Positions 371-43,329 of a DNA stretch of 43,524 nt are shown piece by piece. Every line of letters starts with the position of its first letter. Within the stretch, counting starts at the first letter, position 1. The position numbers and the translations under genes were made by a program. This DNA comes from a virus: IMG/VR virus record IMGVR_UViG_3300032893_000106, positions 1-43,524 of that record. One strand, written 5' to 3'. The notes under the pieces were generated by a model. It did not search any database. It was not told the DNA's origin and was given only the letters and a program-made list of their open reading frames with translations.

Positions 371-376
371 ATGTCT

Positions 377-841
377 ATGAAAGAATTGCTTTTAAGTCGA
401 ACTAGCAAGGGGGAATTATCTGGTAAATTTAAGGCTATCGTTGATGATGATGTTTTTGAAGAAGTCAGTAAATATAATTGGGCAATCGCTAGTTATTATG
501 GATATGCGCAAAATTATAAGCTTGGTTATCTTCACAGATATATTTTAAAAGCGCCCAAAAAAGTTTATGTTGACCACATAAATGGTAATCCATTAGACAA
601 CCGCCGAGAAAATTTAAGAATATGCACCATAGCTCAAAATAATCAGAATGCCCGAAAACATAAAAGTAGACTATCAAGATACAAAGGAGTAGATTTCCAT
701 AATAATAAATGGCGAGTAAACGTGAAGAAGAAGCATATTGGTTATTTTGAGAAAGAGATACACGCCGCTATGGTTTACGATATTTGGGCGAAGGAATTGT
801 TTGGAGAATTTGCAAAGCTTAATTTTCCCGTTCTCCCCTAA
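377..841 (+). CDS. HNH homing-type endonuclease with AP2 DNA-binding domain
   Basis: The 154-residue protein has an HNH core (VDHINGNPLDNRRENLR, about residues 65-81) followed by an AP2/ERF-type domain (YKGVDFHNNKWRVNV, about 102-116, then IGYFEKEIHAAMVYD). This domain pair is typical of free-standing phage homing endonucleases that nick or cut DNA and spread themselves. An ATG at 371 sits directly against the AAAGAGA leader; the ATG at 377 has better spacing and was chosen. The gene lies directly upstream of the structured RNA cluster at 845-1342. HNH genes often sit in or near introns, but I see no group I intron core here. Confidence 0.88.
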   Translation: MKELLLSRTSKGELSGKFKAIVDDDVFEEVSKYNWAIASYYGYAQNYKLGYLHRYILKAPKKVYVDHINGNPLDNRRENLRICTIAQNNQNARKHKSRLSRYKGVDFHNNKWRVNVKKKHIGYFEKEIHAAMVYDIWAKELFGEFAKLNFPVLP

Positions 842-844
842 AGT

Positions 845-924
845 GAGATGGCGTTGTGGGTTGCCGCCGAAGAATAAGGCGGGATGGCGCAAGCCAGTAA
901 AGTTACTCTCCGTAACGCCCTCTC
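845..924 (+). ncRNA. Candidate structured RNA 1 (closed three-hairpin element)
   Basis: The ends pair over nine positions (845-853 GAGATGGCG with 916-924 CGCCCTCTC, one mismatch). Inside are three hairpins: CCGCC/GGCGG (864-868 with 878-882), TGGC-GCAA-GCCA (885-896, GNRA loop) and GTTAC/GTAAC (902-906 with 912-916, whose last C is shared with the closing stem). The outline resembles a cloverleaf, but there is no T-loop or recognisable anticodon arm, so I do not call it a tRNA. Its 3' flank GCCCTCTCGCTCAA recurs at the end of the next RNA element. Confidence 0.45.
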
Positions 925-930
925 GCTCAA

Positions 931-1053
931 ATGAAATATATGATTAACTGGCCAAAATATGTAAAAGTTCGTAACCCTGACCGAAAATGGTATCAATTTT
1001 GGAAACCTTTAATGGTTTGGGTTAGATATAAAGATTGGTTAAAAACTTTATGA
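931..1053 (+). CDS. Small Trp/Tyr-rich protein between two RNA elements
   Basis: A 40-codon frame begins MKYMINWPKYVKVRN and ends RYKDWLKTL, rich in Trp, Tyr and Lys. The start lies six bases after the closing stem of RNA 1, and the TGA stop overlaps the first two bases of the tRNA-like element. There is no clear Shine-Dalgarno sequence; ATG 940 is an alternative. Composition looks protein-like and the frame fills the gap exactly, but with no recognised family this is only a plausible gene. Confidence 0.4.
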   Translation: MKYMINWPKYVKVRNPDRKWYQFWKPLMVWVRYKDWLKTL

Positions 1054-1167
1054 GAGGGTGGTGGAAAAGGTAGACACAAAACTCTTGGTGAATAAATGCG
1101 TTTTAGCCTCGCGGAGCAGAATAGCCAAGAAAATTCAAACTCTAAGGTGCAAATCCTTAGCCCTCTC
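1052..1167 (+). ncRNA. tRNA-Leu-like RNA with abnormal central region
   Basis: A seven-base acceptor-like stem pairs GAGAGGG (1052-1058) with CCCTCTC (1161-1167). It is followed by TG and a D-arm GTGGAAAAGGTAGACAC, which matches the usual bacterial tRNA-Leu D-arm. A T-arm-like hairpin TAAGG-TGCAAAT-CCTTA (1143-1159) sits next to the 3' stem. Between D- and T-arms are about 65 nt, longer than a normal anticodon plus variable arm. AAAAC (1078-1082) can pair with GTTTT (1100-1104), leaving a 17-nt loop, and TCTTGG (1083-1088) with CCAAGA (1125-1130). No normal seven-base anticodon loop is evident. It may be a tRNA with an insertion, a degraded tRNA, or a tRNA mimic. Confidence 0.5.
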
Positions 1168-1176
1168 GCTCAAGTG

Positions 1177-1267
1177 GCCTCTAGGGGAGGGTGATTACGG
1201 ATTCGTTCACAGTGCCGTATGAGCCTGAAGTGTGAAGGGAAGGGCTTCGGCTCTCTCCCCTAGGGGC
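1177..1267 (+). ncRNA. Candidate structured RNA 3 (long-stem element)
   Basis: A 13-bp stem with one G-U pair joins GCCTCTAGGGGAG (1177-1189) to CTCCCCTAGGGGC (1255-1267). Inside is a UUCG-capped hairpin (AGGGC-TTCG-GCTCT, 1241-1254). TACGG (1196-1200) can pair with CCGTA (1215-1219), and TTCACA (1206-1211) with TGTGAA (1231-1236); these two helices cross, as in an H-type pseudoknot. The 11-mer CACAGTGCCGT (1208-1218) recurs in the next element. No known RNA family was recognised. Confidence 0.5.
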
Positions 1268-1342
1268 TTAAGTGGTTAGTCGGACGGCGTTGTTAAGCCA
1301 CAGCACAGTGCCGTTAAACGAGTGGCTCATCCGACACTTAAG
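1267..1342 (+). ncRNA. Candidate structured RNA 4 (pseudoknot-like element)
   Basis: CTTAAGT (1267-1273) pairs with ACTTAAG (1336-1342) and GTCGGA (1279-1284) with TCCGAC (1330-1335). Inside, ACGGC (1284-1288) can pair with GCCGT (1310-1314), and GCCAC (1297-1301) with GTGGC (1322-1326). Again the two inner helices cross, and the second strand of the first helix lies in a copy of CACAGTGCCGT (1304-1314). The element ends about 30 nt before the next gene, so it might also act as a leader. Confidence 0.45.
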
Positions 1343-3094: not shown

Positions 3095-3469
3095 ATGGCT
3101 TTTTACATCCAACGTAATGCTAATAAATATGGCGCGCAAAAAACAATCTACAACAACCTCAAATACGACTCTAAAGGGGAAGCTGGTTATGCCCAAGAAC
3201 TTGACTTACTCCTTAAAGCGAAGCAAATTTCCAAAGTTGAGCGACAAAAAACATTTATTCTTTATGGTAAAAATGGCGGACGAATCACCACGCATCGGGT
3301 GGATTTCCTTGTAACCTTCCCTGACGGCCATCAGGAAGTTCACGAGTATAAAGGCTGGGCTTCCGATGTTTGGAAAATTAAGCGGGATTTATTTGTAGAC
3401 AACTACCCTGACATCCAGTATGTTGTCATAACAGCTAAGGGAAATTGGTTTAATAAAAAATTTAGATAA
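3095..3469 (+). CDS. DUF1064 family protein, nuclease-like
   Basis: The 124-residue protein has the DUF1064 pattern: an N-terminal NKYGAQKTIYN stretch, YDSKGEAGYAQELDLL, KVERQKTFIL, VDFLVTFPDGHQEVHEYKGW. The E...D...ExK arrangement (GEA, VDF, HEYKG) fits a PD-(D/E)XK nuclease core, and family members occur in phage recombination regions. Whether it cuts branched DNA, as an endonuclease would, cannot be told from sequence. It is the last early gene before the terminator at 3564. Confidence 0.85.
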   Translation: MAFYIQRNANKYGAQKTIYNNLKYDSKGEAGYAQELDLLLKAKQISKVERQKTFILYGKNGGRITTHRVDFLVTFPDGHQEVHEYKGWASDVWKIKRDLFVDNYPDIQYVVITAKGNWFNKKFR

Positions 3470-32356: not shown

Positions 32357-32490
32357 CGGCTTGAATGGGCTGCATCCCAAAATTCAAAGCGCTGTTCAAA
32401 GCCTGTTGGCTGGCTTAAAGCTATCGCTGCCGCAAAAAAACCTACACCTATAATAATTGCCCACAAGATTAGTAATAAATAAATTTTCAT
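32353..32490 (-). CDS. Small single-TM protein
   Basis: A 45-residue protein begins MKIYLLLILWAIIIGVGFFA and continues AAIALSQPTG, then a polar tail (FEQRFEFWDAAHSSR). The first 26 residues look like a signal anchor. It is linked by ATGA overlaps to the terminase upstream and the two-TM gene downstream, which supports it as a real gene. Confidence 0.65.
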   Translation of the reverse strand: MKIYLLLILWAIIIGVGFFAAAIALSQPTGFEQRFEFWDAAHSSR

Positions 32491-33764
32491 CGCGGCCGGA
32501 ATTGGTTAGGGATATACTGCTTGGCCATTTTTATCGGCTCTTTGTGTAAAGTCGGAATCGCCGTCCGGTCCATATTCTGCGGCCTAAATTGTTCAGCTTG
32601 CTTTCGGTAAACACCGGCCATCCCTAAAGCATACCTCAACGCATCGCAAGCGTGGTCATTTTCCTTAATCGGGTTCTCATCAGGATTATGCTGGTCTTTC
32701 TTGTCAGGGTAAGCGTAAGTTTCCAGTTCGTAAATTAAATTAACACAAGTGCGGTTAATGTGGAGTCGGCCGGCTTTAAACAATTCGCGCACCGCGGTAA
32801 TGCCGTTTTTAATTGAATCCTTGTTCTTAATAACTTCCCGCACATTAACTTTTAGCTTAGTAAGCTCCCGTATGGCGCTTGGGGATTCTGGGTCAGGGTA
32901 AACTTTGTTGAACGCCTGCGCTTGAACCCATTCGGCAATTTGTAAATCAGTTTGTCCCGACTTGTAAAATTCGCTGTCAACCCAAAAGTTTTCATCGCTA
33001 TCTCGTAAGATAGTAAGGATGGCGCAAGGGTTGGTGAATCCAAAGTCAATGCCGGCAATTCGTTCCACGATTCTTGCGTCGCATTTGTCATACAAATGTT
33101 TGCTCCTATCAAATTCTTTATAAACTAAACCTTCAGTCTTGCGGAAGTCGGCAAGGTATTCTTGAGCAAAGCGGTCTTCGGTAAGTTCCTTCTTCGCCTT
33201 ATCAAGCTCATCCACCGGCAGGAAAGGATTATCATAGCTAGTAAAATGGAAAGACTTGAAATCGCTATCAGTATGTTCAAGATTGAAAAGGTCATAGAAG
33301 TGGTTAAAGCCTTTAGGCGTGGAAATAAATAAGGCTTCACCTTTCGTATCCGTCAATGTCGGCCGCAAGACTTCCTGCCAGTTCAGCCAGAAGTTGCGCA
33401 TTGTCGCAATTTCGTCTATCACCAAAAAATCAAACTTCTGTCCGCGTAAAGTTTCTACGCTCTCCCAGCCTCTTAAAAAAATTATGCTCTCGCCGCCTTG
33501 CAGCGTCCGAGTTTTAACTTCTAGCCGGCTTTCGTTAATCGTCTTATGAAAAGTTTGGATGCCGTGCTTGAGTTGTTCCCAAGCAATGTCGCGGGCTTGC
33601 TGGTAAGTCGGCGCAATGTAACAAATCCGGTTAGGTTTAACTAAAGCTTTAGCTTTTATTTCTTCCACCGCTTCCGTAGTTTTGCCAAACCTGCGGCCGC
33701 AATTTACCACCCTAAACCTATGGGTGTCCGCTGCTATTTGGTTCTGGGCCGGATGGAATTCCAT
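32487..33764 (-). CDS. Terminase large subunit
   Basis: The 425-residue protein has Walker A GRRFGKT (23-29), Walker B FLVIDEIA (113-120), a STPKGF coupling motif (148-153) and an RNase H-like nuclease with IAGIDFGFTNPCA (236-248) and DHACDAL (370-376) supplying the acidic metal ligands. It is the ATP-driven motor and nuclease that packages DNA through the portal. It overlaps the small-subunit gene by 47 bases and is followed by an ATGA-coupled membrane gene. Confidence 0.95.
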   Translation of the reverse strand: MEFHPAQNQIAADTHRFRVVNCGRRFGKTTEAVEEIKAKALVKPNRICYIAPTYQQARDIAWEQLKHGIQTFHKTINESRLEVKTRTLQGGESIIFLRGWESVETLRGQKFDFLVIDEIATMRNFWLNWQEVLRPTLTDTKGEALFISTPKGFNHFYDLFNLEHTDSDFKSFHFTSYDNPFLPVDELDKAKKELTEDRFAQEYLADFRKTEGLVYKEFDRSKHLYDKCDARIVERIAGIDFGFTNPCAILTILRDSDENFWVDSEFYKSGQTDLQIAEWVQAQAFNKVYPDPESPSAIRELTKLKVNVREVIKNKDSIKNGITAVRELFKAGRLHINRTCVNLIYELETYAYPDKKDQHNPDENPIKENDHACDALRYALGMAGVYRKQAEQFRPQNMDRTAIPTLHKEPIKMAKQYIPNQFRPR

Positions 33765-36189: not shown

Positions 36190-36206
36190 AGATTTAATCA
36201 AGAAAT

Positions 36207-36284
36207 CCTGCTACATTAAGAACCCTGTGTTTAGGGTTGGTCTGTATCGTAGCAGGTCAGCCAATTCTAAACATAGGGTTTTTT
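36207..36284 (+). promoter_or_regulatory. Attenuator-like leader with two alternative folds
   Basis: Fold A: CCTGCTAC (36207-36214) pairs with GTAGCAGG (36249-36256), enclosing AACCCT/AGGGTT (36221-36238). Fold B: AACCCTGTGTTTAG (36221-36234) pairs with CTAAACATAGGGTT (36267-36280), a 14-bp stem with one G-U pair followed directly by a U-run: an intrinsic terminator. The two folds exclude each other, as in transcription attenuators and riboswitches. No leader peptide is visible, so a protein, RNA or antitermination signal probably decides. Confidence 0.75.
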
Positions 36285-36366
36285 GTTTAGGCGAATTATA
36301 GTTTTCCTGCCAGCGGATTTTTGCGGTTATAAAGTGGAAACTACAGACGGGGACCCGACTACCCTT

Positions 36367-36411
36367 CTCCTTGCAAGGAGCTTCACAATGCGGGGTATCA
36401 AATTTTTGATA
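36367..36411. promoter_or_regulatory. Two operator-like dyads upstream of the RHH gene
   Basis: CTCCTTGCAAGGAG (36367-36380) is a perfect 14-base palindrome sharing CTTGCAAG with 36170-36177. TATCAAATTTTTGATA (36396-36411) is a perfect 7-bp dyad with a 2-base spacer; its right arm contains TTGATA, a possible -35. Both look like protein sites controlling the next gene. Confidence 0.55.
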
Positions 36412-36426
36412 CAGGGAAACCACTAG

Positions 36427-36833: not shown

Positions 36834-36880
36834 AGATATATAGTTCCTTAACAATTCGGACTCAATGGAAAGGGAAATAT

Positions 36881-37051
36881 ATGAAAAATATGGAGCTTAT
36901 CCAAGCTTGGAAAGTTTTAGATTTAATTGATTCAATGTTAGACCCGCAAATACAAAGTGACAATCCTTCTGGCGAAGTTGTTGGCTGGAATAGAGGCTTA
37001 ATTGCTTTAGGTAGGAAAATAGACCCTAAATTTCACAAAGTAAAATTCTAA
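36881..37051 (+). CDS. Hypothetical small protein, first gene after the strong promoter
   Basis: A 56-residue protein (MKNMELIQAWKVLDLIDSML... RKIDPKFHKVKF). AAAGGG at 36870-36875 is the ribosome-binding site. The gene is flanked by the 9-bp inverted repeat CGGACTCAA (36857-36865) and TTGAGTCCG (37059-37067). Placed first after a consensus promoter it should be strongly made, but function is unknown. Confidence 0.7.
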   Translation: MKNMELIQAWKVLDLIDSMLDPQIQSDNPSGEVVGWNRGLIALGRKIDPKFHKVKF

Positions 37052-37058
37052 ACTAATT

Positions 37059-37157
37059 TTGAGTCCGAGTTGCTAGAGTGCAAACTCATTCAATTGATAA
37101 GGCGCCCTAGAAGGTGTGGCGAAGGACTTTCTCATAAGTTTGGACTTCGCCCTCTTT
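37059..37157 (+). ncRNA. Structured intercistronic RNA
   Basis: The 129-base gap holds GAGTT/AACTC (37067-37071 with 37083-37087), then a hairpin GGCGAAG/CTTCGCC (37118-37124 with 37145-37151) topped by ACTT/AAGT. No gene fits here. It could control translation of the downstream membrane gene or protect the mRNA. No tRNA match was found although CTCATAA resembles a Met anticodon loop. Confidence 0.4.
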
Positions 37158-43004: not shown

Positions 43005-43289
43005 ATGCTTTTACAAAATTGGCAATATGGCTGGAGCGGGAGCGGGAGCAGGAGCAGGAGCGGGAGCTGGAGCGGGAGCTGGAGCAGGAGCGGGAGCAGG
43101 AGCTGGAGCGGGAGCTGGAGCTGGAGCAGGAGCGGGAGCAGGAGCGGGAGCTGGAGCAGGAGCTGGAGCAGGAGCGGGAGCAGGAGCTGGAGCTGGAGCA
43201 GGAGCGGGAGCAGGAGCGGGAGCTGGAGCTGGAGCAGGAGCGGGAGCAGGAGCGGGAGCAGGAGCTGGAGCTGGAGCAGGAGCGTTTAA
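43005..43289 (+). CDS. Ser/Gly/Arg/Trp repeat protein from a GGAGCN hexamer array
   Basis: ATG 43005 has AGGAGG at ideal distance, so this frame (MLLQNWQYGWSGSGSRSRSG, 94 residues) is the most likely translated one. After the first 10 residues every second residue is Ser (AGC), alternating with Gly, Arg or Trp (GGG, AGG, TGG). I recall related phages having Gly/Ser-repeat proteins at this place after the same conserved neighbour. Trp in a repeat of this type is unusual. Function unknown. Confidence 0.6.
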   Translation: MLLQNWQYGWSGSGSRSRSGSWSGSWSRSGSRSWSGSWSWSRSGSRSGSWSRSWSRSGSRSWSWSRSGSRSGSWSWSRSGSRSGSRSWSWSRSV

Positions 43290-43329
43290 ATTAGTCTTAT
43301 TAAAAAGAAAGAGAATATATGAAACTTGA
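43027..43329 (+). CDS. Alternative Ala-Gly repeat frame over the same array
   Basis: From ATG 43027, in another frame, the array reads (Ala-Gly)n for about 85 residues and then FKLVLLKRKRIYET. All base differences between repeat units fall at the third position of Ala codons, so this protein is invariant although the DNA is not. That would be expected if this frame were under selection, but no ribosome-binding site is visible. It overlaps the next gene's start. Confidence 0.3.
   Translation: MAGAGAGAGAGAGAGAGAGAGAGAGAGAGAGAGAGAGAGAGAGAGAGAGAGAGAGAGAGAGAGAGAGAGAGAGAGAGAGAGAGAGAFKLVLLKRKRIYET
43033..43284 (+). repeat. GGAGCN hexamer array, 42 units
   Basis: The array is 42 perfect units of GGAGC followed by G, A or T (never C). 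The variable base follows an irregular order beginning GGAAGTGTAG and ending GAGATTAG, so it is not a simple slippage product. Both strands are open over the whole array. Confidence 0.95.
43298..43314 (+). repeat. Leader cassette, copy 3 (short)
   Basis: TATTAAAAAGAAAGAGA, identical to the last 17 bases of the 30-nt cassette; it ends four bases before ATG 43319. Confidence 0.75.

Follow-up and report, generated by a model that had tools for sequence, protein, structure and literature searches.

A tRNA-Leu-like RNA element with a variable central domain in a phage contig, and its relatives in Firmicutes phages and Enterococcus plasmids

The window, which is the whole stretch of DNA analysed here (43,524 nt), is a 43.5-kb environmental phage contig from IMG/VR. 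Its terminase gene (32487-33764, minus strand) has many environmental relatives and no close isolate. The structural genes lie on the minus strand. The early-type genes occupy the plus strand, beginning near 36 kb and reaching the right end of the contig; in a permuted genome this plus-strand run would continue through 1-3.5 kb. Four structured elements are found at 842-1342, on the strand of the early genes. Upstream of them is an HNH endonuclease gene (HNH_3, 371-841, plus strand; PHROG 99, E 7e-32; PF13392), and element 1 (842-927, plus) starts directly after its stop codon. A candidate 40-codon reading frame (931-1053, plus), which matched no family, lies between elements 1 and 2. Element 2 (1052-1167, plus) is followed by element 3 (1176-1268, plus) and element 4 (1267-1342, plus). 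A DNA search among phages with positions 1-2600 of the window gave no match. When early-region proteins were used as baits, the one encoded at 1342-1521 retrieved none and the one at 3095-3466 retrieved one locus.

A sequence-only reading had described four self-closing stretches in this region, and their existence was borne out by closing helices and fold z-scores, with comparative support for elements 2 and 3. The ends it gave for element 1 had to be moved: 845-924 closes with 4 bp only, matched by 23% of the window segments of equal length, while 842-927 is better bounded, by AGTGAGA/TCTCGCT and then GGCG/CGCC. From the ends first given for element 3 the closing helix has 15 bp, equalled by 0.016% of same-length window segments; elements 2 and 4 each close with 8 bp (0.6% of window segments as good). 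Against 200 dinucleotide shuffles, the fold z-scores were -3.9 for element 1 (842-930), -1.5 for element 2, -4.2 for element 3 and -2.7 for element 4. Graded from these scores and from the closing-helix frequencies, folding energy is significant for elements 1 and 3, moderate for element 4 and weak for element 2. More extreme structure than this cluster exists in the window, 36201-36300 reaching z -7.7 in a coarse whole-window fold scan. The shared strings are also real, with GCCCTCTCGCTCAA at 917-930 and 1160-1173 (elements 1 and 2) and CACAGTGCCGT at 1208-1218 and 1304-1314 (elements 3 and 4). The Rfam and ARAGORN checks that had been proposed were run on the four elements: ARAGORN called no tRNA, and Rfam returned nothing credible at gathering or permissive thresholds, so that the suggested GOLLD or ROOL RNAs have no Rfam match in the cluster. 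Integron attC and HDV-like ribozyme readings were dropped after inspection by eye. The elements differ in the breadth of their families: element 2 has a wide family, element 3 has one relative, and the searches yielded no homologue of element 4, nor, among phages, of element 1. We take the comparative evidence to be decisive for elements 2 and 3, for which the idea of a new phage RNA stands; for elements 1 and 4 the support is limited to folding.

Element 2 carries real tRNA-Leu features, as had been noticed. The 5' strand of its acceptor-like stem, GAGAGGG (1052-1058, plus), pairs at 7 of 7 positions with the 3' strand CCCTCTC (1161-1167, plus). A tRNA-Leu-type D arm, TGGTGGAAAAGGTAGACAC (1059-1077, plus; stem GTG 1061-1063 with CAC 1075-1077), lies in a stretch that matches the element of Bacillus phage SBSphiJ1 with 86% identity over 44 nt. 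The anticodon arm is replaced by a variable central domain (1078-1141, plus), which has a first helix, CTTGG (1084-1088) with CCAAG (1125-1129), and a candidate second, crossing helix, GAAT/ATTC, for which 10 of 60 shuffles were as good. The T arm (1142-1160, plus) has a 6-bp stem, CTAAGG/CCTTAG, and the loop TGCAAAT in place of the TTCAAAT-like loop of tRNAs. There is no CCA; the acceptor strand is followed by G1168 and then CTCAAG. For element 2, ARAGORN and Rfam RF00005 gave no anticodon stem-loop or canonical tRNA fold, no tag reading frame or tmRNA model match was obtained with ARAGORN and Rfam, and the Rfam models of GOLLD, ROOL and OLE did not match.

A blastn search of phages with element 2 gave the 44-nt match (86%, E 2e-4) in SPO1-like Bacillus phages, at places without an annotated gene; the element of SBSphiJ1 is unannotated. 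These stretches share the plan of element 2, with an acceptor-like closure, a D arm GGTGGTGGAAAAGGTAGACAC and the T-loop TGCAAAT. Re-querying with newly found members brought phi3T, SPP1 and phages of Listeria, Enterococcus, Paenibacillus, Brochothrix, Leuconostoc, Lactobacillus, Latilactobacillus, Liquorilactobacillus, Weissella, Aerococcus and Geobacillus. Phages of 12 Firmicutes genera carry the family, as do Enterococcus plasmids. Its plan consists of a 6-8 bp acceptor stem, a tRNA-Leu D-arm, a variable domain and a 6-bp T-stem without CCA, and in most members acceptor and T-stem add up to 13 bp (7+6) instead of the 12 of a tRNA. The loop TGCAAAT and the 6-bp T-stem are kept in nearly all members; the Geobacillus member has the canonical TTCGAAT and A511 has TGAAAAT. 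The layout with fully paired acceptors occurs at 25 loci including the window (24 other phage loci), a count that includes the near-duplicate pair Ent21C1/Ent113 and two minimal 51-nt forms. The latter, from Enterococcus phages (L139 and L144, both 479-529), consist of little more than an acceptor and a T arm, without a full D-arm or a centre, and each precedes a different real tRNA (Glu, Arg); the variable domain is therefore not always needed. Family elements had no Rfam match where scanned and no ARAGORN call on the members checked. Matches in Streptococcus thermophilus were set aside as chance, being 22 nt long and inside replication genes. Streptomyces BRock, where only the T-arm matches, was also rejected. 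No earlier description of the family was found in the open-access literature (preprints and subscription papers lay outside the scope), and it is apparently undescribed so far.

A covariance model built without the window (R1) finds exactly 1052-1167, with 66.7 bits and E 6.4e-17, E-values being rough according to the tool's own note. Ordinary tRNA-Leu genes score lower, 39.1 bits in Melnitz and at most 20.6 bits at L149. We regard the identity of element 2 as a family member as almost certain. Since a real tRNA-Leu reaches 39.1 bits, L146 (41.4 bits) and L147 and L148 (about 24 bits each) are not safe members. L146 (1501-1610, minus) and L148 (1501-1677), the latter with an apparent insertion in the T-loop, may be distant members on contigs related to the window phage by their terminase.

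The stems of element 2 covary in its phage relatives, a check that had been called for on homologues. In an alignment of 18 phage members, with the window left out, 98.6% of the cells were paired, against 71.4% (sd 1.7) in shuffles and 33-44% in slid controls. The tested pairs were chosen from the conserved layout and sequence ends were trimmed to the best-paired acceptor, so this percentage leans toward structure. The count of double changes is thus the stronger evidence: both partners had changed in 12 of 16 pairs, with 82 double-changed cells against 22.3 in shuffles (0 of 500 as good). The acceptor stem covaries, 6 of its 7 pairs being double-changed among the relatives.

Members sit in several kinds of surroundings. 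In temperate phages the element often has a late activator of the RinA/ArpU/DUF722 type on one side and HNH or terminase genes on the other; in SPP1 it is flanked by head genes 9 and 11. In Herelleviridae members lie among tRNAs, several loci being within phage tRNA arrays, and many members are at loci without nearby tRNAs. Among plasmids, 151 records matched, mostly from Enterococcus, and most of those listed match the T-arm part only. Three plasmids examined all have model matches (best 44.5, 96.4 and 35.2 bits) and two of the three carry two; the match at 35.2 bits is uncertain because it falls below the tRNA-Leu control. Tandem copies occur in E. faecalis plasmids, at L158 (2802-2923 and 3000-3128) and L159 (2997-3112 and 3176-3280), those of L159 scoring below the same control. 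In pTEF1 of E. faecalis the element is flanked by the prgA-like sea1 and a DUF5406 (PrgU) gene, with asa1 downstream. The fold of PrgU is PUA-like and binds RNA, and the protein exerts its effect via a different, upstream intergenic region (PMC8265641). DUF5406 is absent from the phages examined here, which rules out PrgU as a general partner of the element. Other structured RNAs were observed near members. At L125, in an Enterococcus phage tRNA cluster, a member (1402-1530) starts 3 nt after a phage tmRNA (1052-1399). In SPP1 (L123) a second tRNA-like stretch, ACGGACGG...GCGGGTTCAATTCCCGG...GTCCGT, follows the member at about 1540-1590, with a weak tmRNA match (E 0.025). An mcrA RNA lies about 90 nt and a DUF3800-VIII RNA about 1.2 kb downstream of members (L128 1620-1670, L141 778-828, L122 2862-2927). 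Structured RNAs seem to cluster in such phages.

The central domain ranges from absent to more than 130 nt across members. Crossing helices were rarely matched by shuffles in PWc (0 of 60 as good), SPP1, Grass and AVP (1 of 60 each) and Pd22F (2 of 60), and were not better than shuffles in other members, including the window. Because these results differ between members, a central pseudoknot is predicted as likely in some of them and is unproven as a family trait. SBSphiJ1 and Grass share flanks (94% and 93%) and scaffold (93% and 100%) and have centres that cannot be aligned, and the same holds for Ln-9 and UCMA21115, with flanks 96% and 99% identical. The unrelated phages SPP1 and Grass have centres 93% identical, and SBSphiJ1 and phi3T, with unrelated flanks, have centres 82% identical, these being raw identities. 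By these comparisons the central domain behaves as a cassette exchanged between phages. The centre could instead be a spacer free to drift, a reading disfavoured by the similar centres of unrelated phages. Its exchange is the strongest clue to the function of element 2; with the scaffold kept constant, it may reflect an arms race or target-specific control.

Some known RNAs resemble the family in part. tRNA-Leu, a class II tRNA, has the same D-arm sequence, a G18G19-like GG and the same acceptor/T-arm layout, but the family has no anticodon arm, a 6-bp T-stem forming a 13-bp stack with the 7-bp acceptor, the loop TGCAAAT, no CCA, and a domain that varies from nothing to over 130 nt. In tmRNA a tRNA-like domain is joined to pseudoknots, which recalls the often pseudoknot-compatible centre, whereas the family has no tag-coding part, one short domain and another T-loop, and the tmRNA model does not match. 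The mcrA RNA (RF03010) and DUF3800 RNAs are likewise structured, occur in Firmicutes phages and lie close to some members, but they are separate RNAs whose own Rfam models do not match the element. The stable RNAs C and D of the T4 tRNA cluster, whose role is unknown, are alike by description, as phage stable RNAs near tRNAs.

The likely role of element 2 is that of a stable tRNA mimic showing a target-specific domain. Acceptor stem, D-arm and T-arm would build the elbow of a tRNA, with the anticodon arm replaced by a variable domain that is often compatible with a pseudoknot. The element would be part of the early-operon transcript and be cut out and protected as tRNAs are (RNase P and RNase Z or 3' exonucleases; RNase P processing is assumed from shape alone), and we infer that it does not decode and would act as a stable RNA. 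Host factors that bind tRNA may see the elbow, while the swappable domain may bind a host-specific protein or RNA, such as a regulator or part of a defence system. Element 3 would be a separate structured RNA on the same early transcript. That element 2 is a mobile-element tRNA mimic presenting a swappable target-binding domain is, as a whole statement, evenly balanced in our judgement, and its functional mechanism is doubtful. More generally, it is possible, at somewhat less than even chance, that a conserved tRNA elbow is a standard holder for interchangeable RNA domains in Gram-positive phages and plasmids, exchanged as cassettes that each target a different host factor.

The tRNA-like fold may instead be a processing or regulatory mark in cis. 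Cut by tRNA maturation enzymes, or bound while the transcript is still being made, it would define the ends of the downstream mRNA, how stable it is or how it is translated, and the freed RNA would have no role. The recurrence of temperate-phage members between the late activator and HNH, terminase or nearby small genes would fit such a mark, as would the SPP1 copy between its head genes and the pTEF1 copy between prgA and prgB homologues and adjoining the prgU homologue; members in Herelleviridae tRNA arrays do not, and a processing mark has no need of cassette exchange in the centre. We regard it as unlikely. Centre exchange between close relatives would fit a decoy or antitoxin-like RNA, whose swappable domain would neutralise a host defence or toxin protein while the scaffold gives stability only; this would also suit the crossing helices that few or no shuffles equal in SPP1, Grass, PWc, Pd22F and AVP and the nearby mcrA and other structured RNAs, but the minimal members have no centre to act as decoy, and we consider this improbable.

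YrlA bacterial Y RNAs, which tether Ro60 to a nuclease, are reported tRNA mimics in which another domain replaces the anticodon region, just as in the family. A Y RNA has been proposed by others for the abundant non-coding RNAs of Listeria phage CKA15 (PMC12282133), to which the A511-type phages carrying the element are close. Yet no TROVE/Ro domain is encoded in any of 27 phage records (the window phage and 26 others; a Deinobacterium control was positive), and no Y RNA family matched in the Rfam scans, which makes this very improbable, though a Ro60 supplied by the host may bind the RNA. The tRNA-Leu-like D arm, the presence of some members in tRNA clusters and the missing anticodon and CCA would be expected of degenerate tRNA-Leu remnants within phage tRNA arrays, much like the broken tRNA array that had been suggested. 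Against this, the acceptor and T stems of element 2 are intact and covary strongly across 18 other phages, the odd T-loop TGCAAAT and the 6-bp T-stem recur in phages of many genera, and many members have no tRNAs nearby. Together with the 13-bp stack, these features argue that element 2 is not a tRNA pseudogene, the least probable reading of all. The preferred reading, a stable tRNA mimic, concerns RNAs that annotation tools miss in the model phages SPP1, phi3T, A511 and SPO1-like phages and in an E. faecalis V583 plasmid. Provided that they are expressed, these RNAs would make up a common class of phage non-coding RNA, open to immediate testing in B. subtilis.

Element 3 has one relative, a 74-nt copy (96% identity) that stands alone between two genes on an unrelated phage contig, L097, in different surroundings. 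A 51-nt core is identical, and the outer helix (1176-1189 with 1255-1268) differs in sequence and pairs at 14 of 14 positions in both. Six double changes were counted in this helix, reached by 10 of 500 shuffles, a control limited by there being two sequences. By this comparison element 3 is evidently a second real RNA. We propose a three-way junction made of the outer helix, TACGG/CCGTA and GAGCC.GAAG/CTTCGGCTC, with putative kissing loops TTCACA (1206-1211) and TGTGAA (1231-1236); the inner helices have no covariation support because they are invariant between the two copies. An 18-mer of the element matched one Oscillatoria genome, where the rest of it is missing. Element 1 is a closed multi-hairpin whose pseudoknot was not better than shuffles. 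In element 4 a stem, GTCGGA/TCCGAC, encloses a candidate pseudoknot in which AGCCAC/GTGGCT crosses ACGGC/GCCGT; the crossing helices are not significant (20 of 100 shuffles as good). Ten matches to an exact 17-mer of element 4 were judged chance, their surroundings being unlike it. Since elements 1 and 4 adjoin elements 2 and 3, and elements 1 and 2 share their 3' end, at most a common history is suggested.

L097 also has a counterpart of an early leader RNA that lies at 36333-36417 of the window (79% over 85 nt), so that the two phages have at least two early-transcript RNA elements in common, this leader and the core of element 3. The leader, ACTACAGACGGGGASCCGACTACCCTTC, is non-coding (window 36333-36417, plus; L097 9738-9821, minus) and forms two hairpins that differ in sequence with pairing kept; it contains CACAATGCGG, similar to CACAGTGCCG of elements 3 and 4. 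A very stable leader lies just before it (36197-36290, plus; z -7.3), where CCTGCTAC/GTAGCAGG, enclosing AACCC/GGGTT, is in competition with a 14-bp stem that runs into TTTTTT; the arrangement resembles an attenuator or a terminated short RNA. In a related phage (L096 8596-8722), a long stable hairpin (-44 kcal/mol) between two small genes contains AGTGAGATGG, resembling the start of element 1. At 36857-37072 of the window an inverted repeat, CGGACTCAA/TTGAGTCCG, surrounds a small gene (36881-37051) and is preceded by TTGACA-17-TATAAT. Finally, a low-complexity repeat with GAGAGA or SGSRSGS frames is found at the right end (43027-43329).
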